A DNA stretch of 64,000 bases, taken from Micromonospora sp. NBC_00389. Its GTDB lineage: Bacteria > Actinomycetota > Actinomycetes > Mycobacteriales > Micromonosporaceae. The stretch covers positions 6,014,001-6,078,000 of the forward strand of contig NZ_CP107947.1 in NCBI RefSeq assembly GCF_036059255.1. Direction: 5' to 3'. This document shows positions 470 through 54,588 of the stretch, one piece after another. Every line of letters starts with the position of its first letter. The first letter of the stretch is position 1. The notes under the pieces were generated by a model. That model was not told the origin of the DNA. It worked only from the letters and a program-made list of their open reading frames with translations, and did not search any database. The translations under genes and the position numbers were made by a program.

Positions 470-582
470 GTCCCCCATCCTGGACACGACGTCTGTGCCA
501 CGCCCCTGCGTCGGCTGTGCGCCAGCTGTGCGGCCGGGCCGACGGTGGATGGGCGGCATGACCCGTCAGCCCAACCCGGAGG

Positions 583-813
583 TCACTCGGACACCCCGAA
601 CGCGTCGGTCCGCACGAATCGCATGCTCCAGCCGCCCGCGCCGTCCGGCTGGTCGCGTTCGTAGAGGTGGTCGGGGCCGGCCTGGGTCGGCCCGGTGCCA
701 TCCGGGTGTCGCATGATCCAGCGCGGTGGAGGGGCGCCGTCCGGCCCGGCCGGCAGCAGCCGGACCAGGCCGTTGGCGGGCCCGCCGACGAAGCGTACGG
801 TGACCTCGCTCAT
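583..813 (-). CDS. Hypothetical small protein
   Basis: A 76-residue soluble protein starting MSEVTVRFVGGPANG. The N-terminal VRFVGGPANG and central PDHLYERDQ stretches resemble small uncharacterised actinobacterial proteins that are mostly beta-strand. No membrane segment, signal peptide or catalytic motif is visible. It is divergent from the Ser/Thr kinase gene at 1013. Function unknown; it is called real because of normal codon use, a clear ATG and an isolated position not shadowed by another gene. Confidence 0.6.
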   Translation of the reverse strand: MSEVTVRFVGGPANGLVRLLPAGPDGAPPPRWIMRHPDGTGPTQAGPDHLYERDQPDGAGGWSMRFVRTDAFGVSE

Positions 814-1012
814 CGCGGCGTCCCCTCGGTGACCATGCCGGCACGTTCGGTGACACCGGCCCTGGCTCGCAAGCTACCGCACCCACCACCGCGCCGCAGC
901 GGGTGCGCGGGCTCGACCCGTGAGCGATTCTCGTGGCGGTTTGCCCAGCTCGGAGGCGGGGTACCGCGACCGGAGGCAACCGCCGCTGGCGGGTAAGAGC
1001 GAGGAGCGATCG

Positions 1013-1960
<948 letters not shown>

Positions 1961-2030
1961 CCGCAGGCCGCGCGGCGTTTCGCCGGGCGGCGGCCGGGTA
2001 GCCGGGCGGGTGAGCGACGGGAGGAACGCG

Positions 2031-2456
2031 ATGCCGGACCCGAGTCCCTGGCTTCAAGAGGCCACCGCGACCGCCGAGGGCGGCCACGTACGCACCGACG
2101 ACGGCGGGCTCTCGACCGCGCTGGCCTCGCCACTGGCAGCGCACTGCACCGGATTGAGGCCAGAGCAGTTGCTGGCCGCCGCCTTCGCCTCCTGCCTGCA
2201 CCACGCTGCGGTGGAGGCGGCCGGGGAGATCACCGATGAGGCGCACACGGTCCAGGTGCGGGCCGAGGCGAAGCTGGGGCGCGACGACGACGGCCGGTAC
2301 CGGGCCGACGTGCACGCCTCGATCTCGTCCGCCGGCCTGAGTCGTCAGCAACTGGCCGACCTGGTCGAGTACGCCGACCGGCTCTGGCCGTTCTCCAGCG
2401 GCGACAACAGCCGGCACCGGCTCACCGTCACCCCGGCGGAGAACGGCCGGCACTGA
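2031..2456 (+). CDS. OsmC/Ohr-family peroxide-resistance-like protein lacking the resolving Cys
   Basis: A 141-residue OsmC-fold protein. Ohr enzymes reduce organic hydroperoxides with two cysteines. The first is present as C55 in LLAAAFASCLHHA. The second, normally in a V/L-C-P context, is replaced: the aligned place reads YADRLWPFS, with W119 where Cys is expected. The protein may therefore be a one-Cys variant or inactive. The ATG at 2031 is preceded by GGGAGGA, favouring it over the in-frame GTG at 2010. It follows the kinase gene by 70 bases in the same direction. Confidence 0.88.
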   Translation: MPDPSPWLQEATATAEGGHVRTDDGGLSTALASPLAAHCTGLRPEQLLAAAFASCLHHAAVEAAGEITDEAHTVQVRAEAKLGRDDDGRYRADVHASISSAGLSRQQLADLVEYADRLWPFSSGDNSRHRLTVTPAENGRH

Positions 2457-2755
2457 GCCAGGCAACGACGCCGGCCCGCCCATCCACCGAACGGGCACGC
2501 CGGGACCTCCACCGTTCGGGGAGCAGGCACGCACCGTAAGGGTGACCCTTGGCGGTCGACCGAAACCGCCGCCGACCGCCGCCGCCGCGACCGGCTTGGC
2601 CAGGCGAATCGGGAATACCCGGCTGGCCCGATCGGCGAAGTTGAGAAGGTTAGCCAGCTTGCCATCCCTTATGGCGTGCAAGATCCGGGCAAATTGTGGC
2701 GCATGCCACTGTTCGGGCCGATGGCGTCGGCCGACCAGGTCTCTAGCCTCGGCGA
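2457..2755. other. Intergenic region upstream of secreted protein
   Basis: About 300 bases without a gene. The middle is a run of GCC/CGC repeats; the right half is relatively AT-richer around 2640-2700 and probably carries the promoter and leader of the secreted protein at 2756. A GGAAT occurs near 2612, but the next GTT lies 23 bases on, so it does not match the GGAAT-N18-GTT spacing seen at the two paralogous genes. No convincing riboswitch was recognised. Confidence 0.4.
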
Positions 2756-3601
2756 GTGCATGCCGACGACCCCTCCGACCAGAAGCTGACCAAGGCACTC
2801 CCGGCCACCCAGCCGGGCGACGCCGCATCAACCGAACGGACGATCGGCCGTCACCGGCTCCCCGATCCACCCCGCCGCGCCCTGCTGGGCTCAACCTCGG
2901 TCCGGGTGGCCCTGGCCACAGGTGTCACCTGCTGCCTCGGCCTGGCCGCGGTCGCCACCGCCCGGGGCGCCGAGGACACCACCCGCCCCGTGGAGCCGCT
3001 GGCCGAGGCGGTGGCCGACCGCGCCGCCATCGGCGACGAACGCGCTTCCCGGTCGCTGGACCGTGACGCCGCCCCCATGCGGGTCAGCCCCAGCCCGACG
3101 GCGAAGCCCACTGCCTCCCCCACCGTGGGCAAGGCGGCCAAGAAGCCGGTCAAGCCGCGCCGACCCCGACCGGTCGCCGGACTCGACCAGACTCAGATGG
3201 ACAACGCCAAGATCATTGTTGACACGGGCCTGGAGCTGAAGATGCCGCGCCGCGCCCTGGTCGTGGCGCTGGCCACCGCCATGCAGGAGAGCAACCTCTA
3301 CAACCTGGCCAGCGACGTGCTGCCCGAGTCGGCGGAGTACCCGCACCAGGGCAGCGGCTCCGACCACGACTCGGTCGGGCTGTTCCAGCAGCGACCGAGC
3401 AGCGGCTGGGGCACGGTGGCCGAGCTGATGCGCCCGTCGTACGCCGCAAGGGCGTTCTACACGGCACTCAACGAGATCCCGGGCTGGCAGGACATGAGCC
3501 TCACGGCCGCCGCCCAGGCCGTGCAGATCTCCGGCTTCCCCGACGCGTACGCCCAGCACGAGGAGCGCGCGAGCACCGTCGCGGCGGCGCTCACCGCCTG
3601 A
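2756..3601 (+). CDS. Secreted/membrane-anchored GLFQQRPSSGWGT-family protein (paralog 1)
   Basis: A 281-residue protein with an N-terminal hydrophobic segment (about residues 50-70, VALATGVTCCLGLAAVATA), a Pro/Lys/Ser/Thr-rich linker (about 105-145), and a C-terminal domain from about 150. The domain contains MDNAKIIVDTG, ATAMQESNLYNL, DHDSVGLFQQRPSSGWGT and FPDAYAQHE. This domain is common in actinobacterial exported proteins. An MQES motif followed by a GLFQQ block recalls lysozyme-like folds, but enzymatic activity is not established. Two paralogs are at 29701 and 34887. The start is a GTG at 2756 without an obvious ribosome site, so the N-terminus is uncertain. Confidence 0.8.
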   Translation: MHADDPSDQKLTKALPATQPGDAASTERTIGRHRLPDPPRRALLGSTSVRVALATGVTCCLGLAAVATARGAEDTTRPVEPLAEAVADRAAIGDERASRSLDRDAAPMRVSPSPTAKPTASPTVGKAAKKPVKPRRPRPVAGLDQTQMDNAKIIVDTGLELKMPRRALVVALATAMQESNLYNLASDVLPESAEYPHQGSGSDHDSVGLFQQRPSSGWGTVAELMRPSYAARAFYTALNEIPGWQDMSLTAAAQAVQISGFPDAYAQHEERASTVAAALTA

Positions 3602-3620
3602 GCCGGGGCCGCATCGGGTG

Positions 3621-4160
3621 TCAGCGACTGCGGGCGCCGTCCCCGGTCGGCGGCTCCGCTCCCGCGTCCACACCGCCGGCGGCCACCCGGGTCGCCGGCA
3701 CGCCCGTACCGGCCGCCGCGGTCGGCGTGTCGGCGGGTACCGGCTCGACGGTCAACCCGCTGAGGATCTCGTCGACTTGCGCCTCGCGTCGCCGGCGGGC
3801 GTACAGCGCCGCCTCGAAGTCGCGCCGGGCCTGCATGGCCTCCGCGTACGCCCTCTCCCGCACCTGCCGAGCCTCGTCGCGGGCCTCGTCCAGCTCGAAC
3901 CGGGCCTGGGCCAGGATCTCCGCCGCCTCCCGCTGCACCGCGTCTCCGGTGTGCCGGGCGACCGCGGCGTCGCCCAGGTCCAGCCGCTGGAGCAGCCCGC
4001 TGAGCCAGGTGGCCTCCTCGCGGATCTCGTCCCACTCCCGAGCCTCCCCGGCGGCGCCCTCCGCCCGCGCCGCCAGCCGGGACAACCGGATCCCCAGCTC
4101 ATCCAGGCAGGAATCGACCTGCCTCTGGTCATAGCCGATCTCAACGACGGAGAACCTCAT
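3621..4160 (-). CDS. DivIVA-like coiled-coil protein
   Basis: A 179-residue protein beginning MRFSVVEIGYDQRQVDSCLDE. It resembles the short N-terminal domain of DivIVA/Wag31 proteins (hydrophobic-x-x-x-x-GYD-x-x-QVD), which binds membranes and polar growth or division sites. Residues 25-130 are charged heptad-rich helix (many E, R, A), predicted coiled coil. The tail is Pro/Ala/Gly-rich and disordered. It is much shorter than a full DivIVA, so it is probably an accessory coiled-coil protein. A GGGGGGCGAC stretch lies just upstream of the ATG. Confidence 0.72.
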   Translation of the reverse strand: MRFSVVEIGYDQRQVDSCLDELGIRLSRLAARAEGAAGEAREWDEIREEATWLSGLLQRLDLGDAAVARHTGDAVQREAAEILAQARFELDEARDEARQVRERAYAEAMQARRDFEAALYARRRREAQVDEILSGLTVEPVPADTPTAAAGTGVPATRVAAGGVDAGAEPPTGDGARSR

Positions 4161-4272
4161 ACTGTCGCCCCCCAGGCAGCTGCTGTTACTTCCCCACCTG
4201 GATCCTCGGCCGCTACGGGAGCGACCGAGGGTGTTCGGGAAAAATATTCAGCATCCGCGCGCGCGGAACGCG

Positions 4273-4719
4273 TCAGGCGCGCTTGGGTAGCACGACCACC
4301 CGGCCGAAGAACTCGTCGATCCGGCGCACCACGTCGTTGAAGTCGTCCAGGCCGATCGGCTTGGTGACGTACGCGTTGGCCTGCAGGGTGTAGCTGCCGA
4401 CGATGTCGGTGTCCGCGTTGGAGGTGGTCAGCACCACGATCGGGATGGTCCGCAGGTCCTCGTCCTGCTTCACCGCACCGAGAACCTGCCGCCCGTCCAT
4501 CCGCGGCATGTTCAGGTCCAGCAGGATGACGTCCGGCCGGCGGGCCTCCGCGTGCCGACCTTCGGCGCGGAGGAACTCCATCGCCTCCTCGCCGTCGTTG
4601 ACCACGTCGATGACCTTCTCGACGTCCGAGTCCGCCAGCGCTTCCTCGATCATCAGCACGTCGCCCGGGTCGTCGTCGACCACCAGGATGCGTACCGGCT
4701 GCGGGCTCTCTGCGCCCAT
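4273..4719 (-). CDS. Rcp1-type single-domain response regulator
   Basis: A stand-alone receiver of 148 residues with no output domain, of the kind linked to phytochrome or other sensor kinases. The acidic pocket is in LVVDDDPGD (13-20), the phospho-acceptor is D68 in VILLDLNMPRMDG, the conserved Thr is in VVLTTSN and the switch Lys is K120 in YVTKPI. The extended ALADSDVEKVIDVVNDGEEAMEFL helix is typical of Rcp1-like regulators. The start at 4719 (MGAESPQP) places the family core near the N-terminus; an in-frame start exists at 4761. It lies next to the STAS/B12/PP2C block, so it may feed the same pathway. Confidence 0.9.
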   Translation of the reverse strand: MGAESPQPVRILVVDDDPGDVLMIEEALADSDVEKVIDVVNDGEEAMEFLRAEGRHAEARRPDVILLDLNMPRMDGRQVLGAVKQDEDLRTIPIVVLTTSNADTDIVGSYTLQANAYVTKPIGLDDFNDVVRRIDEFFGRVVVLPKRA

Positions 4720-4786
4720 CACTACCTGCCTCGAGTCGACGGACGCGGGACCGACGGTCACCGCGCTGGCGGGGAAATCTAGCCCA

Positions 4787-5134
4787 TCAGGAGGCGCTCT
4801 GGGACGCCGGGTCGGCCGTGTCGGGACGGTAGCGCAACACGTCGGCCAGACCGGTAACCCGCAACACCCGCTCGACCCGGCCGTTGGCGCCGGTGAGCCG
4901 CAACCAGCCCCCCTCGGCCGCGGCCCGGTTGTCCCCCCGGACGAACACGGCCATCCCGGTGGAGTCGCAGAACGCGAGGTCGGTGAGGTCGAGCAGCACC
5001 CGGTGCTCGCCGGCGTCGGAGAGCCGGTCGATCGCGGCGGCCAACTCGGCGGCGGTGCTCAGGTCCAGTTCACCGGCGAGCCGTAGGCAGACGACATCAT
5101 CCTCGCGCCCGGCGTGCCTGACGCTGAACGTCAC
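4787..5134 (-). CDS. STAS-domain anti-anti-sigma factor
   Basis: A 115-residue single STAS domain. In partner switching such proteins bind and inhibit an anti-sigma kinase when dephosphorylated. The phosphorylatable serine is S58 within LAFCDSTGMA, preceded by D57; the strand-turn GELDLSTAAEL is also conserved. The start is a GTG at 5134 with GGGGGAGAAC upstream. It lies just downstream of the cobalamin-binding and PP2C phosphatase genes on the same strand, the natural arrangement for a phosphatase and its STAS substrate. No HATPase anti-sigma factor or sigma gene lies in the window. Confidence 0.9.
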   Translation of the reverse strand: MTFSVRHAGREDDVVCLRLAGELDLSTAAELAAAIDRLSDAGEHRVLLDLTDLAFCDSTGMAVFVRGDNRAAAEGGWLRLTGANGRVERVLRVTGLADVLRYRPDTADPASQSAS

Positions 5135-5181
5135 CGTTCTCCCCCTAGCCCCACCGCTGAGTGGACGTTTGCAGTGCGGCA

Positions 5182-5187
5182 AGTATA
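5182..5187 (-). promoter_or_regulatory. Possible -10 element (TATACT) upstream of STAS gene
   Basis: On the minus strand a TATACT hexamer lies about 48 bases before the GTG start of the STAS gene in a very GC-rich surrounding. The upstream -35 region is weak. It suggests the STAS gene can be transcribed from its own promoter in addition to readthrough from the phosphatase operon. Confidence 0.3.
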
Positions 5188-5250
5188 CGCAGGGGCGTGC
5201 CGTCGGCCGAACGGCGCGGTGATCGATTGGGGATGCCGCCCGGCGGACGG

Positions 5251-6291
5251 TCAGCGGGCTGCGGCAGCGGCCAGGGCGGCCCGGCCCAGGGCCAGCGCGT
5301 GCACCGCCCGGGGGAAGTCGCGCAGCGCGGCGGCGTAGTGCGCCAGAGGCAGGTCCACCGCGGCGACGGGCACCCCGCGACTGGTCAGGATCCCCACCAA
5401 CCACTCGGCGAACTCGGTGAACAGCGAGGCGTCGTCGACGTAGAGCGCGGCGGCCAGGAAGTCCACAACGTGGCCCAGGTCGCTCACGGTCGAGTCGAGC
5501 TGGGCGGCTGTGTAGGCCCGGGCCGCCGGGACCCGTTCCCGCAGATCGGCCAGGGCGCTGTCGATCAGCTCACCCCGGCGCCGGACCAGGCCGGCGTACT
5601 CGTCGTCGGTCAGGTGGGACAACTGCGCCGGCGGCACCCGACGCAGCGCCCGCTCGTCGGCGATCAACTCGGCCGCCGACGGCGCGTCCGGCGCCCAGGC
5701 CGCGCCGAGCCGGCGCGCCCAGCGGCCGTCCACGCCGAACCCGCGCCCGCCAACCACCACCGGTACGTCCGAGCGGCGGCACGCCTCGATCATCCGGTGC
5801 GCCTGCGGCAGCCGCATCGGCAGCGCGCAGGCCAGCGCGACCGCGTGCGCGTCGTGCCGGTGCAGGTACGACACCAGGTGCGCCGCGGGCACGCTGGCAC
5901 CCAGGAAGGTCACCTGCCAGCCGCGCAGCCGCAGCACCTCGGCAACCAGCCGGGGTGGCAACGCGTGCCACTCACCGTCCATGCAAGCCACCACGACCCG
6001 CCCGCCGGCCGGACGCGGGTTGGCGTGCACGGCCACCGCCGCCACCACCCGCTCACTGATGTGGGTGGCCGCATGTTCCTGGGCGACGCTCCACTCGTTG
6101 CGCGCCCACCGCTCGCCCACTTCCGCCTGGGCCGGCGCGACCAGGTCGAGCAGCACCCGCTCGGCCGGTACACCCGCGTCGAGCAGGCCGAGCGCCACGT
6201 CGATCGCGGCGTACTCGTCGGCGTCGGTGAGGCAGTCCAGGTAGCTGGGGTAGGCGCCGATCGGCTCGGCGGCGGCGGTCGGGGCGGTCAC
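5251..6291 (-). CDS. Cobalamin-binding sensor protein with CarH-type W-x9-EH motif
   Basis: A 346-residue protein. Residues 15-95 form the helical cap that precedes B12-binding domains and contain W62-x9-E72-H73 (RWARNEWSVAQEH), the signature of light-sensing adenosylcobalamin receptors such as CarH. Residues 98-215 are the Rossmann-like B12 domain. It has a candidate lower-ligand His, H109, in DGEWHALP, where the classical DxHxxG becomes ExHxxP; VTFLGASVP and VVVGGRGF follow. The C-terminal 120 residues are helical and unassigned; no DNA-binding domain is present. The GTG start is 2 bases after the stop of the PP2C phosphatase gene, so the two are translated together. Light or oxygen sensing through cobalamin is inferred, not shown. 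Confidence 0.88.
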   Translation of the reverse strand: MTAPTAAAEPIGAYPSYLDCLTDADEYAAIDVALGLLDAGVPAERVLLDLVAPAQAEVGERWARNEWSVAQEHAATHISERVVAAVAVHANPRPAGGRVVVACMDGEWHALPPRLVAEVLRLRGWQVTFLGASVPAAHLVSYLHRHDAHAVALACALPMRLPQAHRMIEACRRSDVPVVVGGRGFGVDGRWARRLGAAWAPDAPSAAELIADERALRRVPPAQLSHLTDDEYAGLVRRRGELIDSALADLRERVPAARAYTAAQLDSTVSDLGHVVDFLAAALYVDDASLFTEFAEWLVGILTSRGVPVAAVDLPLAHYAAALRDFPRAVHALALGRAALAAAAAR

Positions 6292-8286: not shown

Positions 8287-8625
8287 ATGTCCCCCCAGCT
8301 GTTGACCATTGAGATGACCCGGCTCGACGCCGGAGGCGTCCGTCTGCGGCTGAGCGGCGAGCTCGACTACGACACCGCACCCGAGTTGGTCGCGGCTGCG
8401 GCCGAGCTGCACGGCGACGGCCACCAGCAGCTGATGATCGACCTGACCGGGGTGAGCCTCTGCGACTCCTCCGGGCTCAGCGCGCTGCTGATGGTGCACC
8501 GCGCCGCCGGCGCGATCCGGCTGATCGGGGTCAGCCGGCAGCTCCAGGCAATGCTGGACCGCACCGGGCTGGCCCAACTGCTGGCAGTGGAGCCCGTCGG
8601 CGACAACGTGCGCGCCATCGGCTGA
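8287..8625 (+). CDS. STAS-domain anti-anti-sigma factor
   Basis: A 112-residue STAS protein divergent from the PP2C phosphatase gene. The phosphorylation site region is VSLCDSSGLSALL with D60 and S61. GELDYDTAPELVAAAAEL is the first conserved helix. It is distinct in sequence from the STAS protein at 4787, so the phosphatase may serve two targets. The ATG at 8287 is the first in frame. A strong hairpin terminator follows the stop codon. Confidence 0.9.
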   Translation: MSPQLLTIEMTRLDAGGVRLRLSGELDYDTAPELVAAAAELHGDGHQQLMIDLTGVSLCDSSGLSALLMVHRAAGAIRLIGVSRQLQAMLDRTGLAQLLAVEPVGDNVRAIG

Positions 8626-8658
8626 TCGGCGCCCACCGGGCCGCCCCGGGCAGGGGGT

Positions 8659-44815: not shown

Positions 44816-45294
44816 CAGCGGCCCACCGGCCCTTCCGCTCGCGTGTCCTGCAGATAACCGGTCAGATCGGGGCTCTCCGGCACCAGCATGTGCCGGACCC
44901 AGGCGGCCCGCTCGTGCTCCAGCACCGCCAACTCCCAGACGCAGCCCACCGCGGGGCGGCGCAGTTCGACGAAGTGTGCCGGATCCTGGTCGGGGCAGTC
45001 CAGTGCCGGCTGCCCCGCCGCCGCGGTGCGGACCTCCACCACGTTGTCCCACACCCAGGTGTACGCCAGCAGGTACGCGCCGGTGTCCCCGCCCCGGTGC
45101 AGCACCACCCACCCGGCGGCCGGGGTGCCGTCGTCCGCCAGGTCGGCCAGCAGCGCGGGCAGCAGGTCGTACGCGGCCTTCTCCACCTCCGGCTCGATCG
45201 GCTGCTCCGGCTGGTCGATGTGGTACCGCTTGAACTGCCGACCGTTCACCATGACCGGTCCCGGCGTTCGAAGTTCCTTGTCGCGAAATGCCAT
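44815..45294 (-). CDS. Hypothetical protein
   Basis: A 159-residue protein starting MAFRDKELRTPGPVMVNGRQ. It contains WVVLHRGGDTGAYLLAYTWVWDNVVEVRT and the end VWELAVLEHERAAWVRHML, a pattern recognised from uncharacterised actinobacterial proteins. No enzyme motif is clear. It is translated together with the DUF1579-like gene and divergent from the WYL regulator, which may control it. Confidence 0.75.
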   Translation of the reverse strand: MAFRDKELRTPGPVMVNGRQFKRYHIDQPEQPIEPEVEKAAYDLLPALLADLADDGTPAAGWVVLHRGGDTGAYLLAYTWVWDNVVEVRTAAAGQPALDCPDQDPAHFVELRRPAVGCVWELAVLEHERAAWVRHMLVPESPDLTGYLQDTRAEGPVGR

Positions 45295-45317
45295 GCCGGG
45301 ACGGTAGAACGACTCCC

Positions 45318-45334
45318 CTGACAGCTAGTGTCAG
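45318..45334. promoter_or_regulatory. Palindromic operator CTGACA-N5-TGTCAG
   Basis: A 17-base site with perfect arms CTGACA and TGTCAG, located between the divergent genes at 45294 and 45339 and ending 4 bases before the GTG of the WYL regulator. Its position suggests that the regulator binds it and controls itself and the divergent hypothetical pair. Confidence 0.65.
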
Positions 45335-45338
45335 TGAA

Positions 45339-46331
45339 GTGCGAGCCAGTCGACTTCTCTCCGTCCTGCTGCTGCTCCAGTCGCACGGCCGGCTGACCGC
45401 CGCGCAGCTCGCCGAGCGGCTGGCCGTCTCCCCGCGCACGATCTACCGGGACGTGGAGTCGCTGCACGCCGCCGGCATCCCGCTGTACGGGGAAGCCGGG
45501 CACGCCGGCGGCTACCAGCTGGTCGACGGCTGGCGGACCCGGTTGACCGGGCTGACCGCCGAGGAGGCCGACCGGCTCTTCCTGGCCGGGCTGCCCGGGC
45601 CGGCCGACGAGCTGGGCTACGGCGACGTGGTGGCCGCGCTGCAACTCAAGCTGCACGCCGCGTTGCCGGCGCCGCTGCGCGACCGGGCCACCCAGCTCCA
45701 GCAACGCTTCCACCTGGACACGCCCGGCTGGTACGCCGACGGCGACGCCTCCCCCGAGCTGGCCCGCACGGCCGAGGCGGTCTGGCGGCAGCACCGCATC
45801 GAGGTGCGCTACCGCAGCTGGAGCGGCGAGGTGACCCGGGTGTTGGAGCCGTACGGCCTGGTGCTCAAGGGCGGCCGGTGGTACGTGGTGGCCGACCGGC
45901 CCGGCCGTGGCGCACCTGCGACCTACCGGGTCAACCAGATCCTCGCGCTGACCCCGCTGGCGGAGGAGTTCGACCGGCCCGACGACTTCGACCTGCCGGC
46001 CTGGTGGCGGGCGCACGTGGTGCAGTTCCGCGCCCGGCTGCACCGCGACGAGGCCACCGTGCGGCTCTCCCCGGCCGGCCGGGCGCGACTACGCGAGATC
46101 GGCAGCGACCCGGTGGTGGCCGCGGTGGACGCCAGCGCCGGGCCGCCCGACGCGCAGGGCTGGGTGACCGCCGCGCTGCCGATCGAGTCGCTCACCCACG
46201 CCCACGGTGACCTGCTGCGCCTCGGCGCAGACGTGGAGGTGTTGACCCCGGTCGCGCTGCGCGAGCAGCTGGCCGCCACGGCGGCCGGACTGGCCGCCCT
46301 GTACGCCCCCGCCGAGCAGCCGGTCCGCTGA
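45339..46331 (+). CDS. YafY-type HTH/WYL-domain transcriptional regulator
   Basis: A 330-residue regulator. The N-terminal winged helix is LLQSHGRLTAAQLAERLAVSPRTIYRDVESLHAAGIPLYGE. The WYL domain is at about 150-230, with GLVLKGGRWYVVADRPG. A C-terminal WCX part follows. WYL domains sense nucleic-acid or other ligands. The start is the GTG at 45339, and the palindrome lies directly before it. It is divergent from two hypothetical genes, its likely targets. Confidence 0.9.
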   Translation: MRASRLLSVLLLLQSHGRLTAAQLAERLAVSPRTIYRDVESLHAAGIPLYGEAGHAGGYQLVDGWRTRLTGLTAEEADRLFLAGLPGPADELGYGDVVAALQLKLHAALPAPLRDRATQLQQRFHLDTPGWYADGDASPELARTAEAVWRQHRIEVRYRSWSGEVTRVLEPYGLVLKGGRWYVVADRPGRGAPATYRVNQILALTPLAEEFDRPDDFDLPAWWRAHVVQFRARLHRDEATVRLSPAGRARLREIGSDPVVAAVDASAGPPDAQGWVTAALPIESLTHAHGDLLRLGADVEVLTPVALREQLAATAAGLAALYAPAEQPVR

Positions 46332-46436: not shown

Positions 46437-47069
46437 GTGAGGGTCACGCTACGGCTACGCGCACTGGTCGCCGTCCCCGGCACCGGGCCGGTGACTCTCG
46501 ACGTCCCGGCCGGCACGACGGCCGCCCTGGTGGCGCCACCCCGGGTCGGCACGGCCGTGGCCCGGGTGCTGGCCGGGCTCGCCGCCCCGGTCACCGGGCG
46601 GATCATGGTCGGCGACAGGGACGTCACCGCCCTACCGCCGCCGCGCCGGCAGATCGGGTACGTGCCCGCCGGCGGCGCGCTGCTGCCACAGCTCACCGTG
46701 CGCCGCAACATCGAGTACGGCCAACGCAAGCGCGAACGGGTGCACGAGGTGGCCGACGACTGGACGGCCATCGTGGTGGACCGGCTCGAGTTGGCGCCGA
46801 CGCTGGCCCTGCTGCCGCACCTGCTCTCCGACGCCCAACGGTTCCGGGTGGCCCTGGCCCGGGCGGCGGTCTGCCTGCCCGAGGTGCTCGTCATCGATCT
46901 CCCGGCCGATCCGGCCGGTGGCAGCCGCCTCGGTGACCTGCTGCCCCGACTGTCCCCACCGGACGCACCGGGGGTGGCCGTGCTGGTGTGCACCGCCGAT
47001 GCGGCCACCCTGGCCGAGATCCCGCGCCGGCACGAGCTGGTCACCGAGCCCGAGGGGATGCTCCGGTGA
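46437..47069 (+). CDS. Catalytically dead ABC-transporter ATPase-like protein
   Basis: A 210-residue protein that aligns with MalK-type ABC ATPases along its length but has lost every catalytic motif. Walker A (GPSGxGKS/T) reads APPRVGTA; the Q-loop (YVPQ) reads YVPAGG; the signature LSGGQ reads LSDAQ; Walker B and its Glu (DEP) read DLPAD; the H-loop (THD) reads TAD. The surrounding TVRRNIEYG and ALARAAVCLPEVLVIDL stretches are intact, so this is divergence, not frameshift. The GTG at 46437 is used; an ATG at 46395 adds 14 residues. It heads a tight operon with a binding protein, fused permeases and a STAND protein. Confidence 0.85.
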   Translation: MRVTLRLRALVAVPGTGPVTLDVPAGTTAALVAPPRVGTAVARVLAGLAAPVTGRIMVGDRDVTALPPPRRQIGYVPAGGALLPQLTVRRNIEYGQRKRERVHEVADDWTAIVVDRLELAPTLALLPHLLSDAQRFRVALARAAVCLPEVLVIDLPADPAGGSRLGDLLPRLSPPDAPGVAVLVCTADAATLAEIPRRHELVTEPEGMLR

Positions 47070-48346
47070 CGCCGGCCGGCCGTGCCACCCGGCGTACGCT
47101 GCTGCGCGCCGCCGCGGCCGGCGCCGCGGCGACCGCGGCCGGCTGCACCGGCGGCACCAGGTCGGTGCAGGTGGCGGTGGTGTGGAGCGGCAGCGAGCTG
47201 GACCGGTTCCGCCAGGTCGTCGCGGGCTACCCCGATCCGGTGCACGTGGTCAGCGCCGGCAACGACATCGACGCGTTCCTGCGCGCCCGGCACCTCGCCG
47301 GCACCAGCCCGGATGTGGCGATCCTGTCCCGTCCCGGCCTGGTCACCGAGTACGCCCTGCGGGACTGGCTGAGCCCGGTGCGCGCGTCGCCCGAGTACGC
47401 GGTGCCCACCGGGCTGAGCGACCTGCTGGTGACCGAGGAGCAGCGCTACGGCGTCTGGGTGAAGGCGGCGCACAAGTCGCTGATCTGGCACCTGCCGTCG
47501 CAGCTGCGCACGCCGCCACGCACCTGGGACGAGCTCGTCGCGCTGACCCGCCAGCTCGGCGCGATCGCCCGACGCGGGTCCGGTCCGGCGCCACTGGCGA
47601 TCGGCGCGGCGGACGGTTGGGTGCTCACCGACTGGTTCGAGAACGTGCTGGCCGACCTGGCACCCAACAGCTACGACGCCCTCACCCGGCGGGACGCCGA
47701 CTGGCAGGGCCGACCGGTGCGCGACGCCCTGGACCGGCTCGCCGAGCTCTGGAGCATCGATGGCGCGTTTCCCGGTGGCGGGCGCCGCGCCCTGCTCACC
47801 CAGTACGAGGAGTCGGTGATTCAGGTGGTGCGCTCCCACCGGGCGGTGATGGTCTTCGAGGCCGACTTCACCGCCGAGGTGGTCGGCACGTTCCGGCGCG
47901 GCTCGGAGGAGCCGGCGACCATCCGGTTCCCGAGCGCCCGGCCGAGCGGCACCGGCCCACTGATCGTCGGCGGGGACGTGGCGGTGGCGTTCGCCGGCGG
48001 CCAGGGCGGGGTGGAGCTGGTCGAGTGGCTCACCCGGGCCGACTCGTTCCGCCCCTGGCTACGCGCCGGCGGCTACCTGTCACCCAACACCAGGATCCCC
48101 CTGGACGACTACGCCGACCCGGTCCGCCGCAGGCTCGCCGAGGAGATGCGCGCCCCCGGCACCCTGCGCTTCGACCTCTCCGACCAACTGCCCGGCCCGT
48201 TCACCGGCTCCGACGGGGTGGGCATCTGGCGGATCATGCAGGACTTCTTCGCCGACGTCACCGACGGCGTGGCCGCCGCCGAGGCGGTCCGTCGGGCCAC
48301 CGGGCAACTCGCCGCGGCGGCGCGCAGCGCGGGCGGCGGCCGATGA
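47066..48346 (+). CDS. ABC-type extracellular solute-binding lipoprotein
   Basis: A 426-residue lipoprotein. The N-terminus has twin arginines (ATRRTLLRAAAAGAAATAAGC) and a lipobox ending in Cys near residue 29. The mature protein follows the sugar-binding-protein pattern: VAVVWSGSELDRFRQVVAGY at the N-terminus, then ILSRPGLVTEYA and GPLIVGGDVAVAFAGGQGG. The GTG start overlaps the stop of the ATPase-like gene (GTGA). The substrate is unknown; the family suggests a carbohydrate. Confidence 0.88.
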   Translation: MTPAGRATRRTLLRAAAAGAAATAAGCTGGTRSVQVAVVWSGSELDRFRQVVAGYPDPVHVVSAGNDIDAFLRARHLAGTSPDVAILSRPGLVTEYALRDWLSPVRASPEYAVPTGLSDLLVTEEQRYGVWVKAAHKSLIWHLPSQLRTPPRTWDELVALTRQLGAIARRGSGPAPLAIGAADGWVLTDWFENVLADLAPNSYDALTRRDADWQGRPVRDALDRLAELWSIDGAFPGGGRRALLTQYEESVIQVVRSHRAVMVFEADFTAEVVGTFRRGSEEPATIRFPSARPSGTGPLIVGGDVAVAFAGGQGGVELVEWLTRADSFRPWLRAGGYLSPNTRIPLDDYADPVRRRLAEEMRAPGTLRFDLSDQLPGPFTGSDGVGIWRIMQDFFADVTDGVAAAEAVRRATGQLAAAARSAGGGR

Positions 48347-50109
48347 CCCAGGTCCGGGTACTCGGCGAGTTGGCGGTGCTCGACGACGTCGGGCCGCCCC
48401 GCCGTGGCCGGGCCTACCCGGCGGCCGGGGCGACCTCAGCGCTGCTGCTGCCCGCCATGGTGCTGCTCGGCGGGCTGGTGGTGTGGCCGGTGCTGCGAAC
48501 CCTGCACGCCAGCGTCACCACCAACGGTCACTGGGTCGGCGCGGCACATTTCCGCACCGCGCTCGCCGCGCCGGGTACCGGCGCGGTGGTCGGCCGTACG
48601 GTGCTCTGGGCGGTGCTGGTGCCGGCGGTCGTGACGGCGCTGGGCTACCTGCTCGCCGCCGCGTCCCGCCGCTCCCAGGAGGGCGGGCTGGTCCGCCTGA
48701 TCCTGCTGGTGCCGGTGGCGCTGCCGCTGGTCGTCACCGGGGTGACCTTCCGCCTGATGTACGACCCCGACCCGACCCGGGGCCTGGCCACGCTGGTCGC
48801 GGCGCGGGTGACCGGCCGGTCCGCCGAGGACGCCCCGCAGTTGCTCGGGCCGGGCCTGGTCACGGTGGCGCTGATGTCGGCGTTCGTCTGGGCCTGGGTC
48901 GGCCTGGCCGTGCTGGTCTTCCGGGCCGCGCTGGACGCGGTGCCGCCGAGCCTGGCCGACGCGGTCCGCGCCTACGGCGGCGGTCGACGCCATGTGCTGT
49001 GGGACGCGCAGTGGCGACCGCTGCTGCTGCGTACCGTCGCGGTGGTCTTCGCGCTGGTGGCGGTGGGGACCAGCCGCACCTTCGACCTGATCCTGGTGAT
49101 GACCCCCGGCTCGGTGCGCGACGAGGCCGCCGTGCTCGCACTGCGGGTCTGGCAGACCTCGGGCGGCACCACCACCGGCGAGGGCGCCGCACTCGGTGTG
49201 GTGTGGCTGGTGGCGGTCGTCGGCGGGATCCTCGTGGCGGCGCTGTTCGTCCGACAGGCGTGGCCACCGCCGCGCGCCGAGACGCCGCCGGAACCGGACC
49301 GGGCGCCCCCGCCCCGGCGGGTGTTCCGGCTGCTGGCGGCGGGTGCCGCGGTGGCCTGGCTGGTGCCGCTGGCGGTGCTGGTCGCCACCTCGATGCACGG
49401 GCGGGTGGACGCCGCGGCCCGCGGCTGGTGGGCGGCCGCGCCGGGGGTTGCCTCCTACCGTGACCTGGTCGCCAACACCGAGCTGTGGCGGACGCTGGCC
49501 TTCACGCTGCTGCTGGCCACCGTGGTGACCGCCACGGTGCTGGTGGTCGCGCTGCTGGCCGCGTACCCGCTGGCCTGGCTGACCGGGCCGGCCGCGCAGG
49601 CCACCGGGCTGCTGCTGCTGGCGGCCAGTGTCGTGCCGATCCAGGTCATCGCCGGGCCGGTCAACGAGGTGCTGGGCCTGGTGCTCTCCTCCGGCACCGC
49701 CCGCGGGCTGGCCCTGGTGCACGTGGCGCTGGGCGTGCCGTTCGCGGTGCTGGTCCTGCGCAACGCGTTCGCCGACCTGCCGTCCGAGCAGGTGCGCGGC
49801 GCCCGGCTGGGTGGGCGGCGCTGGTGGGGCACCCTGCGCCGGCTCGCCCGGCACAACCTGCCCGCGATGGTGGCGGTCTCCGTGCTGGAGTTCGTCCAGG
49901 TCTGGAACGACCTGGTGGTGGGCCTGCTGTTCAGCGGGCCGGAGGCGGCGCCGCTGGGGCTCTTCCTGGCCGGGCAGACCCGCGGCTTCGTGAGCAACAG
50001 CGGGTTGCTGGCCGCCAGCTCGGTGCTCGCCTCGGTGCTGCCGGTGATGCTGGTGGTGCTCGCCCGGCGGAAGCTCGTCGCCGGGCTGGTCTCCGGGGGC
50101 GTCCGGTGA
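48343..50109 (+). CDS. Two ABC permeases fused in one polypeptide
   Basis: A 588-residue membrane protein in which two MalF/MalG-like permeases follow each other in one frame. The first half (about 30-315) carries VRLILLVPVALPLVVTGVTFRLMY and an altered EAA loop, LADAVRAYGGGRRHVLWDAQWRPLL. A linker of about 25 residues (PPPRAETPPEPDRAPPPRRV) follows. The second half (about 340-588) has EQVRGARLGGRRWWGTLRRLARHNLPAM as its EAA loop. There is no stop or start between the halves. The ATG overlaps the previous stop (ATGA). Confidence 0.88.
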   Translation: MTQVRVLGELAVLDDVGPPRRGRAYPAAGATSALLLPAMVLLGGLVVWPVLRTLHASVTTNGHWVGAAHFRTALAAPGTGAVVGRTVLWAVLVPAVVTALGYLLAAASRRSQEGGLVRLILLVPVALPLVVTGVTFRLMYDPDPTRGLATLVAARVTGRSAEDAPQLLGPGLVTVALMSAFVWAWVGLAVLVFRAALDAVPPSLADAVRAYGGGRRHVLWDAQWRPLLLRTVAVVFALVAVGTSRTFDLILVMTPGSVRDEAAVLALRVWQTSGGTTTGEGAALGVVWLVAVVGGILVAALFVRQAWPPPRAETPPEPDRAPPPRRVFRLLAAGAAVAWLVPLAVLVATSMHGRVDAAARGWWAAAPGVASYRDLVANTELWRTLAFTLLLATVVTATVLVVALLAAYPLAWLTGPAAQATGLLLLAASVVPIQVIAGPVNEVLGLVLSSGTARGLALVHVALGVPFAVLVLRNAFADLPSEQVRGARLGGRRWWGTLRRLARHNLPAMVAVSVLEFVQVWNDLVVGLLFSGPEAAPLGLFLAGQTRGFVSNSGLLAASSVLASVLPVMLVVLARRKLVAGLVSGGVR

Positions 50110-52484
50110 CCGGCCCCACGGGCGCCGGCCGGGGGCCGCGCTGGCCGGTGCTGATCGCGGTCGGCACGCTGGTCAGTGGGGTGCTCGGCAACCTGGCCAG
50201 CAACCTGCTCTCCGAGCTGGCGGCCAGCGTGCTCGGGCCGGCCAGCATCGTGCTGGTGGTCAGCGGCGGGGTCGGCTTCGTGGTGTTCGAGATGCGCCGG
50301 CGCCGAGCCGGTCGGGAGGTGAGCCAGGAGCCCACCGACGTCGTCGACGCACCGGCCACCGGCGCGTCGACGCTGCCCTATCCGGCCGGCTTCACCGGCC
50401 GCGCCGAGCACGTCGAGACGGTGCTCGGGCTGCTCAGCCGGGAGCACGCGGTGGCCGTGCTGGGCCGGCGGGGGGTGGGCGCCTCCGCCTGCGCCGTGCA
50501 GGCGGCGAACCTGTGCCGGGCGGACTTCCCGGACGGGCAGTACTACCTCGACCTGCGCCGCGGCGGTCGGCTCCGCTCCGCCCGGCAGGTGCTCACCGCG
50601 CTGGCCGGCGTCCTGGGCACCACACCGCCGACCTCGGGCCGGCCGGACGCCCTCACGCTCGCCGCCGACGCGCTGCGCCGCCAGCTCGACGACCGCAAGA
50701 TCCTGCTCGTGCTGGACAACGTCGACCGTCCCGAGCAGGTCCGACCGCTGCTGCCGCCCACCTCGCGGACCTGCCGGCTGCTGCTCGCCGGCGGCCCGGC
50801 GCTGAGCGGGCTGGAGGGCGTGGTCGCCCACTGGATCGCCGAGCCGGGCCCGGCCGAGGCGGTGGAGCTGTTCGCCGCCGCCGGTGGGGCGGCACCGGCC
50901 GCCCGGGCCCGCCGCGCCGACCCGCGTACCGACCCGGCGGTCCGCGAGATCGTCGAGCTGTGCGGGCAGCAGCCGCGCACGGTCCGGGCGCTCGGCTACC
51001 GCACCGCGCAGCACGGCTGGCGGCACGCCGACGTGCTGGACGTGCTCCGCCGCGCGGTGCAGACGCCGCCGCACCAACGGGTCAGCATCTCGCCGGCGGC
51101 CCGGCTGGTCACCGAGCGGGACACCGCGTACCGGGCGTTGACCCGCGAGGCACGTCGCCTGTACCGGCTGATGTCGCTGGCACCCGCGCCGGTGGACCGG
51201 CCGGCCATCGCCGCGTTGGCCGGTCGGCATCCGGAGCGGGTGACCGCGCTGCTCGACCAGCTGGCCGCCGCGGCGTTCGTGGTCGGCGCTCCCGGCGACC
51301 GGTACGAGATCCGCCCGCTGCTCGCCGGCAACGCCCGGCTGCACCTGCGGGACGCCGATCCGGCCGGGGCTCGGGTCGCCGCGCAGGCCCGGCTGACCCG
51401 GCACCTGGCGCGCCGGGCCGAGCGGCACGCGGCCAACCTGGCCGTGCTGGGCTCCCCACCGGACCGGGAGTGGTCACTGCCGCTGGACGACGACCCGTAC
51501 GGCTGGTTCGACCTGCATCAGGAGCTGCTGCTGGCGGTGGTCCGGGTGCCGGCCGGCGCCGCCGAGACGCTGCCCCGCCGGGTACGCCGGTGGTGGTTCC
51601 GGCTGGCCGTGGCGCTGTGCGGGTGGCTGGCGCACGTCGAGCGGCTGGACGAGTGGGAGCAGGTGTGCCGCACCGTGCTGGCCACCCCGACCGCCGACGA
51701 CCGACCGGAGATCGCTGGGTGGGCGCACAACGAGCTGGGGGTGCTGCGCCGGCGCCGACACGACCCGCAGGGCGCCGCCGCGGCGCTCACCCTCGCGGTG
51801 GCCGAGCGGGGCCGGCGGGGCACCGCCCAGGCCCGGATGAACCTCGGCCTGGCGCTGCTCGACCTGGGGCAGCTCGACGACGCGGTGGAACACCTGGAAC
51901 TGTCGCGCCGGCACCGCTCGGGAGCGGACCGGGCCGGGCTCGCGCTCACCGACCTGGGCCTCGGCGCGGCGCAGCTGGCCCGGGGGGACCTGGACAGCGC
52001 TCACCACCACCTCGTGCGGGCGGCGAACACCTTCCGGTCGGTGGGTGACGCTCGCGGCTACGCCGCGGCGCTGACCAACCTGGTGCTGGTGCACGCCGCC
52101 CTTGGCGAGCACCTGGACGCCGCGCAGGCGTGGCGCGCCGCGCTGCGCGAGTACGAGTCGGTCAGCGACCCGACCAGCCGGGCGGCGGCGCTGCTCAACG
52201 CCGGGGCGACGCTGCTGACCGCCGCGCCCGGGCAGGCCCGGGCGGCGTACGAGCTGCTGGCCGAGGGCCGGCGGCTACGCGAGGAGAGCCGGCCCACCCT
52301 GGGGCTGGCCCGGACCCTGCTGTACCTGGGAGACGCCGCCGCCGAGCTGGGCGACCGGGCCGAGGCGCGGCAGCACTGGGCGGACGCGGCGGCGGTGGCC
52401 GAGGAGGTCGACGACGCCGAAGGGCTGGCCGCCGCCGACAGCCGGCTGGAGGACGGCACGGACCTGTCGCCGGCTGACCCGTGA
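50106..52484 (+). CDS. Membrane-anchored NB-ARC/STAND-like protein with TPRs, Walker A lysine lost
   Basis: A 792-residue protein. Two hydrophobic segments are at about 13-62 (LIAVGTLVSGVLGNLASNLLSEL, then IVLVVSGGVGFVVF). The NB-ARC-like part is at about 95-330. Its P-loop reads GRRGVGASA in place of the usual GGVGKT, so the essential Lys is absent, while Walker B (KILLVLDNVD) remains. The C-terminal half (about 500-780) is a series of TPR-like helices (ARMNLGLALLDLGQLDDAVEHLELS and others). The GTG start overlaps the permease stop. It resembles AfsR-type STAND proteins without the DNA-binding domain; probably a scaffold or regulator rather than an ATPase. Confidence 0.83.
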   Translation: MTGPTGAGRGPRWPVLIAVGTLVSGVLGNLASNLLSELAASVLGPASIVLVVSGGVGFVVFEMRRRRAGREVSQEPTDVVDAPATGASTLPYPAGFTGRAEHVETVLGLLSREHAVAVLGRRGVGASACAVQAANLCRADFPDGQYYLDLRRGGRLRSARQVLTALAGVLGTTPPTSGRPDALTLAADALRRQLDDRKILLVLDNVDRPEQVRPLLPPTSRTCRLLLAGGPALSGLEGVVAHWIAEPGPAEAVELFAAAGGAAPAARARRADPRTDPAVREIVELCGQQPRTVRALGYRTAQHGWRHADVLDVLRRAVQTPPHQRVSISPAARLVTERDTAYRALTREARRLYRLMSLAPAPVDRPAIAALAGRHPERVTALLDQLAAAAFVVGAPGDRYEIRPLLAGNARLHLRDADPAGARVAAQARLTRHLARRAERHAANLAVLGSPPDREWSLPLDDDPYGWFDLHQELLLAVVRVPAGAAETLPRRVRRWWFRLAVALCGWLAHVERLDEWEQVCRTVLATPTADDRPEIAGWAHNELGVLRRRRHDPQGAAAALTLAVAERGRRGTAQARMNLGLALLDLGQLDDAVEHLELSRRHRSGADRAGLALTDLGLGAAQLARGDLDSAHHHLVRAANTFRSVGDARGYAAALTNLVLVHAALGEHLDAAQAWRAALREYESVSDPTSRAAALLNAGATLLTAAPGQARAAYELLAEGRRLREESRPTLGLARTLLYLGDAAAELGDRAEARQHWADAAAVAEEVDDAEGLAAADSRLEDGTDLSPADP

Positions 52485-52546: not shown

Positions 52547-53170
52547 GTGATCGTGGATACGCTCTCGGTGCGGGGACTCAGCCGCAACTTCGGCAACCTG
52601 GTCGTGCTCGACGACGTGAGTTTCACGCTCCAGGCCGGCCGGATCGCGGTGGTGCTGGGCCCCAACGGCAGCGGCAAGACCACCCTGCTGCGCTGCGTGG
52701 TCGGCGCCGACCGGCCGGACGCGGGCGAGGTGCTGGTGCAGGGTCGCCGGGCCGACGAGACCGATCCCCAGGTGCGGGCGCTGGTGGCGGCCGCCCTGGA
52801 CGACATCGACTTCTTTCCCGACCTGTCCGTGGTCGAGCACCTGGAGCTGGTCGCGTACGCCCACGGGGGTAACGCCGACCCGGTCGACGAGGTCCTGGCC
52901 GAGCTGGGTTTGGAGCCGGCCCGCGACCAACTGCCGGTGACGCTGTCCAGTGGGCAGCGCCGCCGGCTGGCGCTGGCGTCCTGCTTCGTGCGGCCCCGTC
53001 GGGTGCTGATCCTCGACGAGCCGGAGCAGCGGCTGGACGTGCGCGGCCGGCAGTGGCTGGCCGACCGGTTGCGCCGGGAGCGGGAGGCGGGCACCGCCGT
53101 GCTGCTGGCCTCGCACGATCCGGAGCTGATCGACGCGGTCGTCGACGAGCGGATCGAGATCGGCCGGTGA
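52547..53170 (+). CDS. ABC transporter ATP-binding protein (intact)
   Basis: A 207-residue ABC ATPase with full motifs: Walker A GPNGSGKTT (about 38-46), signature VTLSSGQRRRLALAS, Walker B RVLILDEPEQ and H-loop LLASHDPEL. It is an exporter-type half transporter subunit, and its stop overlaps the start of the DUF6297 membrane protein (GTGA), its likely partner. It lies 62 bases after the STAND-like gene and could be part of the same transcript, but its motif content contrasts with the dead ATPase upstream. Confidence 0.9.
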   Translation: MIVDTLSVRGLSRNFGNLVVLDDVSFTLQAGRIAVVLGPNGSGKTTLLRCVVGADRPDAGEVLVQGRRADETDPQVRALVAAALDDIDFFPDLSVVEHLELVAYAHGGNADPVDEVLAELGLEPARDQLPVTLSSGQRRRLALASCFVRPRRVLILDEPEQRLDVRGRQWLADRLRREREAGTAVLLASHDPELIDAVVDERIEIGR

Positions 53171-54588
53171 CGGCCCCGCCGGCCACGGTCGCCGACGCGC
53201 CGGCCGGGGTGCCCACCGCCCGGCAGGTGCGCTCGCACCTGCGCCGGGCCCGCCGCCGGCACCACGACCACTCCCTCGGCGACGTGCTGGGCGACGCGTA
53301 CGTCATGGTCCTCTTCGTGGGCATGTACGGCTGGTTCGCGATCAGCGCCAGCCGCGACATGCTGGATTCGCCCACGGTGGGGCGGGCCGACCCGGGGGTG
53401 CGCTGGTGGCTGGCGGTCGCCGCGCTGCTGGCCGCTGCCGGGCTCGCCTGGCGCGGCCTGCGCGCGCTCGGCCCGCTGCTGGTCACCCCGGCGACGCAGA
53501 GCTGGGTGACCAGCGCGCCGGTCGACCGGCGGGCCTGGCTGGCGCCGCGCCTGGTCATCCTGCTGACGGGCGCGACGGCCGGCACCGCGCTGATCGGGGT
53601 GGCCGTGGCGGCGCTCGGCGGCGTCACCGACCTGGCCGTCCTGGGCTGGGCGGCGGCGGCCGGTGCGGGGTGGGGGGCGACAGCGCTGGCGTTCAGCGTG
53701 GTCGCCCAGGGCGGCCGACCGGGCCGGCGGTGGCCGACCCTCGCCGGGGTGGTGCCGCTGCTGGCGGCCGCCGCCGTCACGGCTCTGGTGGTCCTCGCCG
53801 GTCGTCTCGGCGACGGGCTGCCCCGGCCGACGGCGTCGCCGACCGCCGCGCTGGTCGTCGTCGGGGTGCCCCTCGCGGTCGCCGCCACCGTCCTCGCGTT
53901 ACGCGCGCTGCCCCGGGTGGACCGGGCCACGCTGACCACCGGCGCGCAGTTCGCCAACGCCGCGGCGACGGCCACCATCCTGCTCGACCCGAGCATGCTC
54001 GCCGGCCTGGTGGAGAGCCGGCGCTGGCGCCAGATCGGCCGGGTCCGCAGTCGCCGATTCCTGCCCGGCCCCGGCTGGTGGGCGCTGCTCCAGGCCGACG
54101 TGCGCCGGCTCCGCCGCCACCCCAGCGCCCTGCTGATCTGGACGGCGCTGATCCTCGTCCAGTACGCCGCCGCGCTCGCCCTGCCCGGCCTGGCCGGTGC
54201 CGCGCAGGTGGTGTTCGGCTACTTCGCCGCCGACCGGCTGACCGGCGGCCTCCGATCGATCAGCCGGTCCCCCGGGTTGCGTCGGGCGCTCGGCGGCAGT
54301 GACGCCGCGCTGCGCGGGATCCACGTGATCGTGCCCGCGATCGGCACGGGGCTGTGGTGGCTGCTGACCATGCCGACGGTCGACGGTGGGCCTCCCTGGC
54401 TGGGGCCGGCGCTGGCGCTCGGGGTGGTGGCCGCCGCCTGGCGGGCCGGCACCCGACCACCGATCGACTACGGCGGGGCGACGGTGAACACGCCGTTCGG
54501 GATGATCCCGGTCGACCTGCTCCGCCAGGGCTCGCGGGGGCCGGCGCTGCTCGCCGTGCTGGTCCTGGTCCGCCTGTTCCTGGGCTGA
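53167..54588 (+). CDS. DUF6297 membrane protein (ABC-2-type permease-like)
   Basis: A 473-residue polytopic protein with hydrophobic segments at about 45-60, 80-98, 130-150, 160-175, 195-215, 225-245, 330-350 and 400-450. DUF6297 family blocks are visible: GPLLVTPATQSWVTSAPVDRRAWLAPRL and ADVRRLRRHPSALLIWTAL. It is coupled to the intact ABC ATPase by a GTGA overlap, so the pair is likely an exporter. Substrate unknown. Confidence 0.82.
   Translation: MTAPPATVADAPAGVPTARQVRSHLRRARRRHHDHSLGDVLGDAYVMVLFVGMYGWFAISASRDMLDSPTVGRADPGVRWWLAVAALLAAAGLAWRGLRALGPLLVTPATQSWVTSAPVDRRAWLAPRLVILLTGATAGTALIGVAVAALGGVTDLAVLGWAAAAGAGWGATALAFSVVAQGGRPGRRWPTLAGVVPLLAAAAVTALVVLAGRLGDGLPRPTASPTAALVVVGVPLAVAATVLALRALPRVDRATLTTGAQFANAAATATILLDPSMLAGLVESRRWRQIGRVRSRRFLPGPGWWALLQADVRRLRRHPSALLIWTALILVQYAAALALPGLAGAAQVVFGYFAADRLTGGLRSISRSPGLRRALGGSDAALRGIHVIVPAIGTGLWWLLTMPTVDGGPPWLGPALALGVVAAAWRAGTRPPIDYGGATVNTPFGMIPVDLLRQGSRGPALLAVLVLVRLFLG

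Follow-up and report, generated by a model that had tools for sequence, protein, structure and literature searches.

A conserved actinobacterial cassette of importer-derived proteins has lost its ATP motifs and is a candidate ATP-independent solute receptor

What does an importer operon do when its ATPase has lost the catalytic motifs and its genes travel with a membrane protein of the STAND type? The question is raised by a four-gene cassette in the 64,000-nucleotide stretch analyzed here (the window), taken from Micromonospora sp. NBC_00389 (contig NZ_CP107947.1), whose 7.87-Mb genome is a single contig with Micromonospora as nearest relatives. The cassette occupies positions 46437-52484 on the forward strand and encodes a pseudo-ATPase of the ATP-binding cassette (ABC) type (gene 1), a solute-binding lipoprotein (gene 2), two fused permeases (gene 3), and a membrane-anchored NB-ARC/TPR protein (gene 4) (Table 1). 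Three of its four proteins have lost their ATP motifs in a coordinated way, and purifying selection acts on them. Many soil actinobacteria, from three families, have conserved the cassette, which is thus no product of local decay. We propose, with a probability of about 0.55, that the four proteins form a predicted membrane complex derived from a sugar-type importer, now serving as an ATP-independent solute receptor that signals to the TPR protein.

Gene 1 matched the Pfam family ABC_tran (5.7e-13) and has the fold of a MalK-type ABC ATPase. Of the motifs expected in such an ATPase, the Walker B Asp is retained (VLVIDLP), and five are missing: the GxxxxGK[ST] of the P-loop, LSGGQ, the catalytic Glu, the Gln of the Q-loop, and the His of the H-loop. 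The losses are common to its relatives. In an alignment of 105 rows, comprising the window, 10 loci, and 94 of the 120 database matches listed among 218 found, Walker A, LSGGQ, and the Q-loop Gln were each present in 0/105, the catalytic Glu at its aligned column in 2, and the H-loop His at its column in none (7 rows carry a His one column further). The Walker B Asp was retained in 91/105, and 8 of the 10 distant loci have ED in place of the expected DE. The P-loop remnant varies among relatives (entropy of 1.65 bits over residues 32 to 42, against a whole-protein mean of 1.47 bits). The strongly conserved stretch PAGGALLPQLTVRRN corresponds to a region that in MalK borders the cleft for the permease coupling helix. 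That cleft lies in the helical subdomain of MalK (PMC3150292). Two of the most diverged cassette members, L073 and L075, which sit on long branches in the lipoprotein tree described below, have pseudo-ATPases that retain more of the P-loop (VGPSGFGGTT and IGETGFGGTR), with the Lys absent; these are possibly closer to the ancestral state.

The EAA motif of an importer permease is the contact gripped by the ATPase. Gene 3, which matched BPD_transp_1 in two stretches (4.2e-9), has lost it in both halves, and the pattern EA[AV]xxDG was found in 0 of 50 cassette permeases. Among 25 outgroup importer loci, 21 had the same pattern in two places and 3 in one place, and the remaining locus, cut by a contig end, had none. 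An alignment was built from 15 of these 25 outgroup loci, the motif count being made later on all 25, together with 17 representatives drawn from the 50 cassette permeases and omitting L037, L042, L060, and L070, which lie at contig ends. Both permeases of all 15 aligned outgroup loci retained EAAxxDG. The Glu was found in 0/17 cassette representatives in either half, and the Asp at the aligned columns in 0/17 for half 1 and 4/17 for half 2. The second loop is 2 to 4 residues shorter in the rows from Streptosporangiaceae and Thermomonosporaceae. The membrane helices of the permease are well conserved (VWNDL, HVALGVPFAVLVLRNAF).

Gene 4 matched TPR_12 (1.6e-12) and, below the curated cutoff, NB-ARC (0.0026). 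The Lys of its Walker A motif (GxxGxGK[ST] expected) is Ala in the window and is absent from all 47 related loci, being Thr in 46 and Ser in 1; in an alignment of 38 rows, the position holds Thr in 36, Ser in 1, and Ala in 1. The Lys is replaced even where the P-loop is otherwise perfect (GPPGIGTS). As a control, 11/11 other NB-ARC proteins of the same genome (E ≤ 1e-3) retain GxxGxGK[ST]. The Walker B Asp of gene 4 is conserved, with D204 and N205 invariant in the 38 rows, and a hydrophobic stretch lies within the first 125 residues of 47/47 relatives. The 47 proteins form one connected group at a BLAST E value of ≤1e-5, five of the most distant having no direct match to the window protein at E ≤ 1e-3; two further candidates (L107 and L108) were dropped as spurious fourth frames of outgroup loci. 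When four distant relatives were scanned, NB-ARC was found in one (0.0021), and no family was found in L078. A role in antiphage defense was considered and set aside, PADLOC having returned only a generic TPR model for gene 4 (8.2e-6) and no model for genes 1 to 3.

Gene 2 belongs to a carbohydrate-type binding protein family. It matched SBP_bac_1 below the curated cutoff (3.5e-4) and is distantly similar to the glucose-binding protein 2b3b (5.7e-6). A twin-Arg signal followed by a lipobox-like Cys was present in 53/53 relatives with a loose pattern; 4/53 passed a stricter lipobox test with a hydrophobicity threshold, below which Ala-rich signal peptides score. In a tree of 83 lipoprotein sequences, the 53 cassette members fall on one side of a single branch with 100/100 support, and this branch was present in 100% of 200 bootstrap trees; the tree is rooted at the midpoint only, contains some rows on long branches, and leaves out L001 to L025, rows shorter than 330 amino acids, and L079. 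Two genus members carry a lipoprotein relative at 33 to 34% identity with permease matches nearby (L026 in genome G048 and L027 in G006); both lack a dead-ATPase match in the fetched stretch and lie outside the cassette clade in the tree.

An initial annotation of this DNA, made from the sequence alone, had described four genes joined by GTGA or ATGA overlaps that encode an ABC-ATPase-like protein without catalytic motifs, a binding lipoprotein, two fused permeases, and a membrane NB-ARC/TPR protein lacking the Walker A Lys. The gene layout is as described, with 4-base overlaps GTGA at 47066, ATGA at 48343, and GTGA at 50106. Pfam and sequence comparison agree with the lipoprotein and the fused permeases, and the loss of the Lys from gene 4 was confirmed, in the window as GRRGVGAS and throughout the 47 related loci. 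The description of gene 1 holds for the P-loop, Q-loop, LSGGQ, Glu, and His and fails for the Walker B Asp.

The same annotation suggested a search for the four-gene order in other genomes, and the order was found. Named genomes were scanned with the lipoprotein, and the best 79 loci of 126 relatives were set against the four proteins, as were 30 loci that the search of the genus had yielded; several other loci coincide with named ones (e.g., L116 with L071 and L111 with L069). A dead-type ATPase-like neighbor was present in 54/79 named lipoprotein loci, and in these 54, gene 4 followed the permease in 47, the contig ended in 5, and the frames were broken in 2. The 4-base start/stop overlaps were kept between genes 1 and 2 in 45/53 loci, between genes 2 and 3 in 49/52, and between genes 3 and 4 in 41/43 (L079, with its broken frames, was left out of these counts). 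Of the 61 genomes searched in the genus, genes 1 to 3 had close homologs in one and the same set of 25, and gene 4 had them in 24 of this set; weaker matches to gene 2 from other binding proteins occurred in 58/61 at E ≤ 1e-20. At the level of the family, gene 1 was matched (E ≤ 1e-25) in 15/150 genomes and 12/44 genera, one of the matches (genome G090) containing an internal stop. The named hosts belong to Micromonosporaceae, Thermomonosporaceae (Actinoallomurus), and Streptosporangiaceae (Sphaerisporangium, Acrocarpospora, and Streptosporangium). The neighboring genes vary between genera; thus, the four genes are a jointly inherited unit. A class-wide search with an ATPase profile matched 358/394 genomes and is unusable for estimating the prevalence of the cassette because ordinary ATPases also match. 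Walker A and LSGGQ were both missing from only two of the 30 class loci fetched, the window (L131) and L132, and the aligned stretches of L141 and L145 had LSGGQ and lacked Walker A.

The ratios of nonsynonymous to synonymous substitution rates (dN/dS) place the cassette genes under purifying selection, with the lowest ratio of the four in the gene 3 permease. Ratios were computed by the Nei-Gojobori method from pairs with a dS of 0.15 to 1.2 and sequences of at least 85% of full length, again without L079; they are uncorrected for GC-rich codon bias and serve for gene-to-gene comparison. Among the parts that stay conserved are the face of the ATPase close to the permease cleft, the membrane helices, and, in the NB-ARC protein, the Walker B Asp. 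The initial annotation had asked whether motif loss is conserved by selection and had named simple decay of this copy, with intact motifs in related genomes, as the outcome that would speak against a new system. That outcome was not observed: the orthologs share the losses, and the genes are under purifying selection.

The sequence of events in the proposed receptor would begin outside the cell, where the lipoprotein, judging by its family, may bind a carbohydrate-like ligand. Once loaded, the lipoprotein would dock on the fused permease, as its counterpart does in MalFGK2, and alter the shape of the permease. The pseudo-ATPase, with its retained fold and conserved cleft-side surface, is predicted to sit against the permease on its cytoplasmic side as a fixed adaptor and to relay this movement without hydrolysis. 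Finally, the NB-ARC/TPR protein would change its TPR cargo, releasing or recruiting a putative effector. Selection has kept the ligand-binding lipoprotein and the NB-ARC/TPR partner, as well as the membrane helices and the side of the pseudo-ATPase that faces the permease. A receptor would call for such parts: a ligand on the outside, a change of shape carried across the membrane, an adaptor within the cell, and protein-protein output by way of the TPRs. The initial annotation had offered two readings, transport that is abolished or powered by another ATPase and a solute-sensing envelope signaling complex; this interpretation is partly supported. Power from another ATPase is made unlikely by a feature absent from that annotation, the loss of EAA from both permease halves, and the second reading is the best one left, with its ligand, its output partner, and signaling itself as predicted parts. 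That a whole importer has become an ATP-free receptor, giving up ATP binding and the coupling loops of both halves and passing its signal to a STAND protein without a nucleotide switch, is a proposition to which we give roughly even odds.

Several observations weigh against a receptor. The EAA Gly is still found at the aligned columns in 15/17 representatives for half 1 and 11/17 for half 2, so that some docking may persist, and a role in transport is conceivable; the loops may also have diverged to grip a different, unrecognized partner. Pfam revealed no kinase or enzymatic output domain in the four cassette proteins. At the thresholds used, 36/61 genus members lack the cassette. The copy in genome G052 (L172, contig 216, positions 745-918) matches only residues 1 to 54 of gene 4, the remainder of which was not found in the first 4,000 bases of the 5,150-base contig carrying the permease end; this copy is disrupted or misassembled, and one broken copy in 25 is compatible with both gain and occasional loss. 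In L121 (genome G090), the pseudo-ATPase gene is broken at 8357-8626 (89 amino acids, one stop), with genes 2 to 4 open. Matches in two frames, reflecting decay or sequencing error, were seen in the lipoprotein gene of L079 and L025 and in the NB-ARC/TPR gene of L062 and L079. Lastly, evolution is faster in the pseudo-ATPase than in the intact ATPase, and the dN/dS of the lipoprotein (0.362 to 0.384) exceeds that of each of the three neighboring control genes (0.079 to 0.278).

The absence of Walker A from the ATPase and of EAA from either permease half makes ATP-driven import improbable, whether with the cassette's own ATPase or a borrowed one. An importer driven by a shared MsiK-type ATPase encoded elsewhere, with the dead ATPase as a placeholder or regulator, would find candidates in the nine MalK/MsiK-like ATPases of the genome (E ≤ 1e-40), and many related Streptomyces loci have no pseudo-ATPase match beside the binding protein, where an unlike ATPase could escape detection. 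Such an ATPase would nevertheless need EAA loops to grip, which are present in both permeases of 21/25 outgroup loci and in none of the 50 cassette permeases, and it would compete with the cassette's own dead ATPase, whose docking side is conserved; we regard this explanation as quite unlikely, and the suggestion of power from another ATPase loses ground with it. A related proposal, an asymmetric machine with the dead ATPase on permease half 1, an intact ATPase on half 2, and hydrolysis at one site, is very improbable. Its appeal is that the two EAA loops differ and that half 1 is the better preserved; against it, the loop of half 2, where the intact ATPase would dock, is the more degenerate and is the one shortened in two families, and no second ATPase gene cotravels with the cassette. 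In degenerate-site exporters, moreover, Walker A is present in both ATPases, and ATP binding and one working site are retained, unlike in the cassette ATPase, where Walker A is gone. Exporters with one degenerate site are themselves well known (PMC7756269).

An ATP-free passive carrier or gated pore, to which the lipoprotein delivers a solute that diffuses through the permease while the pseudo-NTPases are structural, agrees with the conserved membrane helices and with the permease having the lowest dN/dS of the four. It leaves unexplained a TPR/NB-ARC partner kept in 24/25 genomes and offers no reason to retain a binding protein when there is no energy source, and we judge it unlikely. The close resemblance of the cassette parts to importer parts could also indicate a negative regulator or decoy, in which the dead ATPase or the permease sequesters the binding proteins or ATPases of other ABC importers, but a cassette with a full set of its own parts and divergent coupling loops would be expected to mix poorly with canonical subunits, which leaves this explanation very doubtful. 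Plain decay of an old importer operon is the least probable of all and borders on the negligible: the few broken copies (G052, L121, L062, and L079/L025) and the patchy distribution in the family (15/150 genomes) are outweighed by purifying selection, near all-or-none inheritance, conserved gene overlaps, and identical losses in three families within one clade.

How would an ATP-independent receptor of this kind relate to known systems? Like CUT1/MalFGK2-type importers (MalEFGK2, LpqY-SugABC), the cassette has a MalK-type ABC fold and an exported solute-binding lipoprotein; unlike them, it has an ATPase without Walker A, Q-loop Gln, LSGGQ, or the C-terminal regulatory domain, fused permeases without EAA in either half, and a cotraveling NB-ARC/TPR gene. 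Gene 4 resembles STAND NTPases in its Walker B Asp, its NB-ARC domain, and its C-terminal repeats. It differs from the NB-ARC-TPR proteins AfsR and HaaT (the latter from clusters for cyclophane ribosomally synthesized and posttranslationally modified peptides) in that the Walker A Lys is replaced in every aligned member, an N-terminal membrane anchor is present, no SARP domain was found, and the gene is encoded with importer parts. Judged by these motifs, the cassette falls outside the working ABC importers and also outside the STAND NTPases that have a Walker A Lys, although it is descended from both.

By analogy, the cassette would be akin to binding-protein-based sensing, a kind already known. 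In GlnH-GlnX-PknG of Corynebacterium and Mycobacterium, a kinase that bears TPRs is under the control of a binding lipoprotein and of a protein in the membrane (PMC9769921 and PMC8546545). The likeness is one of outline and function only (a lipoprotein on the outside, a protein in the membrane, and a TPR protein within the cell). GlnX is a four-transmembrane receptor-like protein rather than a permease and PknG is a kinase, whereas the relay of the cassette would be importer derived, and no kinase family was found in its four proteins. The loss of catalytic residues from a retained ABC ATPase also recalls the exporters with one degenerate site (reviewed in PMC7756269). The literature searched, which leaves out most subscription journals, yielded no description of a cassette like this one.

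If the proposed reading is true, the cassette would represent a new class of bacterial receptor built from two pseudo-NTPases and a pseudo-permease, and ABC parts would be a source of bacterial sensors. It would also be a natural experiment separating the surfaces of an ABC importer that transmit shape from those that serve ATP and a clean example of a STAND protein retained without the Walker A Lys. Databases name gene 1 an ATP-binding cassette protein, and annotation would count the cassette as an ordinary importer.

Table 1. Positions in the window of the cassette genes and of the sequence features discussed
Feature	Position	Strand	Description
Gene 1, pseudo-ATPase	46437..47069	+	ABC nucleotide-binding fold without catalytic motifs; 210 amino acids; no C-terminal regulatory domain
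P-loop remnant APPRVGTAV, residues 33-41	46533..46559	+	Walker A Lys lost; variable in relatives
Strongly conserved stretch PAGGALLPQLTVRRN, residues 77-91	46665..46709	+	Aligned with VPQDYALFPHLSV of ModC 2onk
Gene 2, solute-binding lipoprotein	47066..48346	+	426 amino acids; carbohydrate-type family
Twin-Arg signal and lipobox-like Cys	47090..47146	+	RRTLLRAAAAGAAATAAGC
Gene 3, two MalF/MalG-type permeases fused	48343..50109	+	588 amino acids
First EAA-loop position	48958..48981	+	DAVRAYGG where EAAxxDGA is expected
Second EAA-loop position	49786..49815	+	EQVRGARLGG; motif lost
Gene 4, membrane-anchored pseudo-STAND protein	50106..52484	+	792 amino acids; N-terminal hydrophobic hairpin, NB-ARC-like domain, TPR repeats
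N-terminal hydrophobic helices, residues 22-68	50169..50309	+	Predicted membrane anchor, low model confidence
P-loop GRRGVGAS	50463..50486	+	Walker A Lys replaced by Ala; GxxGxGK[ST] expected

The genes on either side of the cassette were considered as possible members. Directly downstream, at 52547-54588, an ABC ATPase that is intact (GPNGSGKTT) forms a separate two-gene pair with a membrane protein of the family DUF6297. The ATPase (52547-53170) was rejected as the missing motor: it is partnered with the DUF6297 protein, adjoins the cassette in 15/40 Micromonospora loci (some of which end early), and belongs to a cluster that, among the loci of the neighborhood comparison, is restricted to the window, L031, L036 of M. 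lupini Lupac 08, and L121. Upstream, a WYL/HTH_11 transcription regulator (45288-46331) stops 105 bases before the cassette and might be its controller in Micromonospora. It was rejected as a member of the cassette, a copy with >60% identity being present in 25/40 Micromonospora loci and its cluster in the neighborhood comparison being confined to Micromonospora (the window, L031, L036, L045, and L055). A gene run encoding a MoxR AAA ATPase, a DUF58 protein, and a TgpA-type transglutaminase lies, complete or in part, upstream of the cassette in four genomes that belong to three genera (L071, at 88-5945, L113, L115, and L121), accompanied in L071, the one locus scanned for families, by an fn3-repeat protein. 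This run marks either a common site or an ancestral neighborhood of the cassette.

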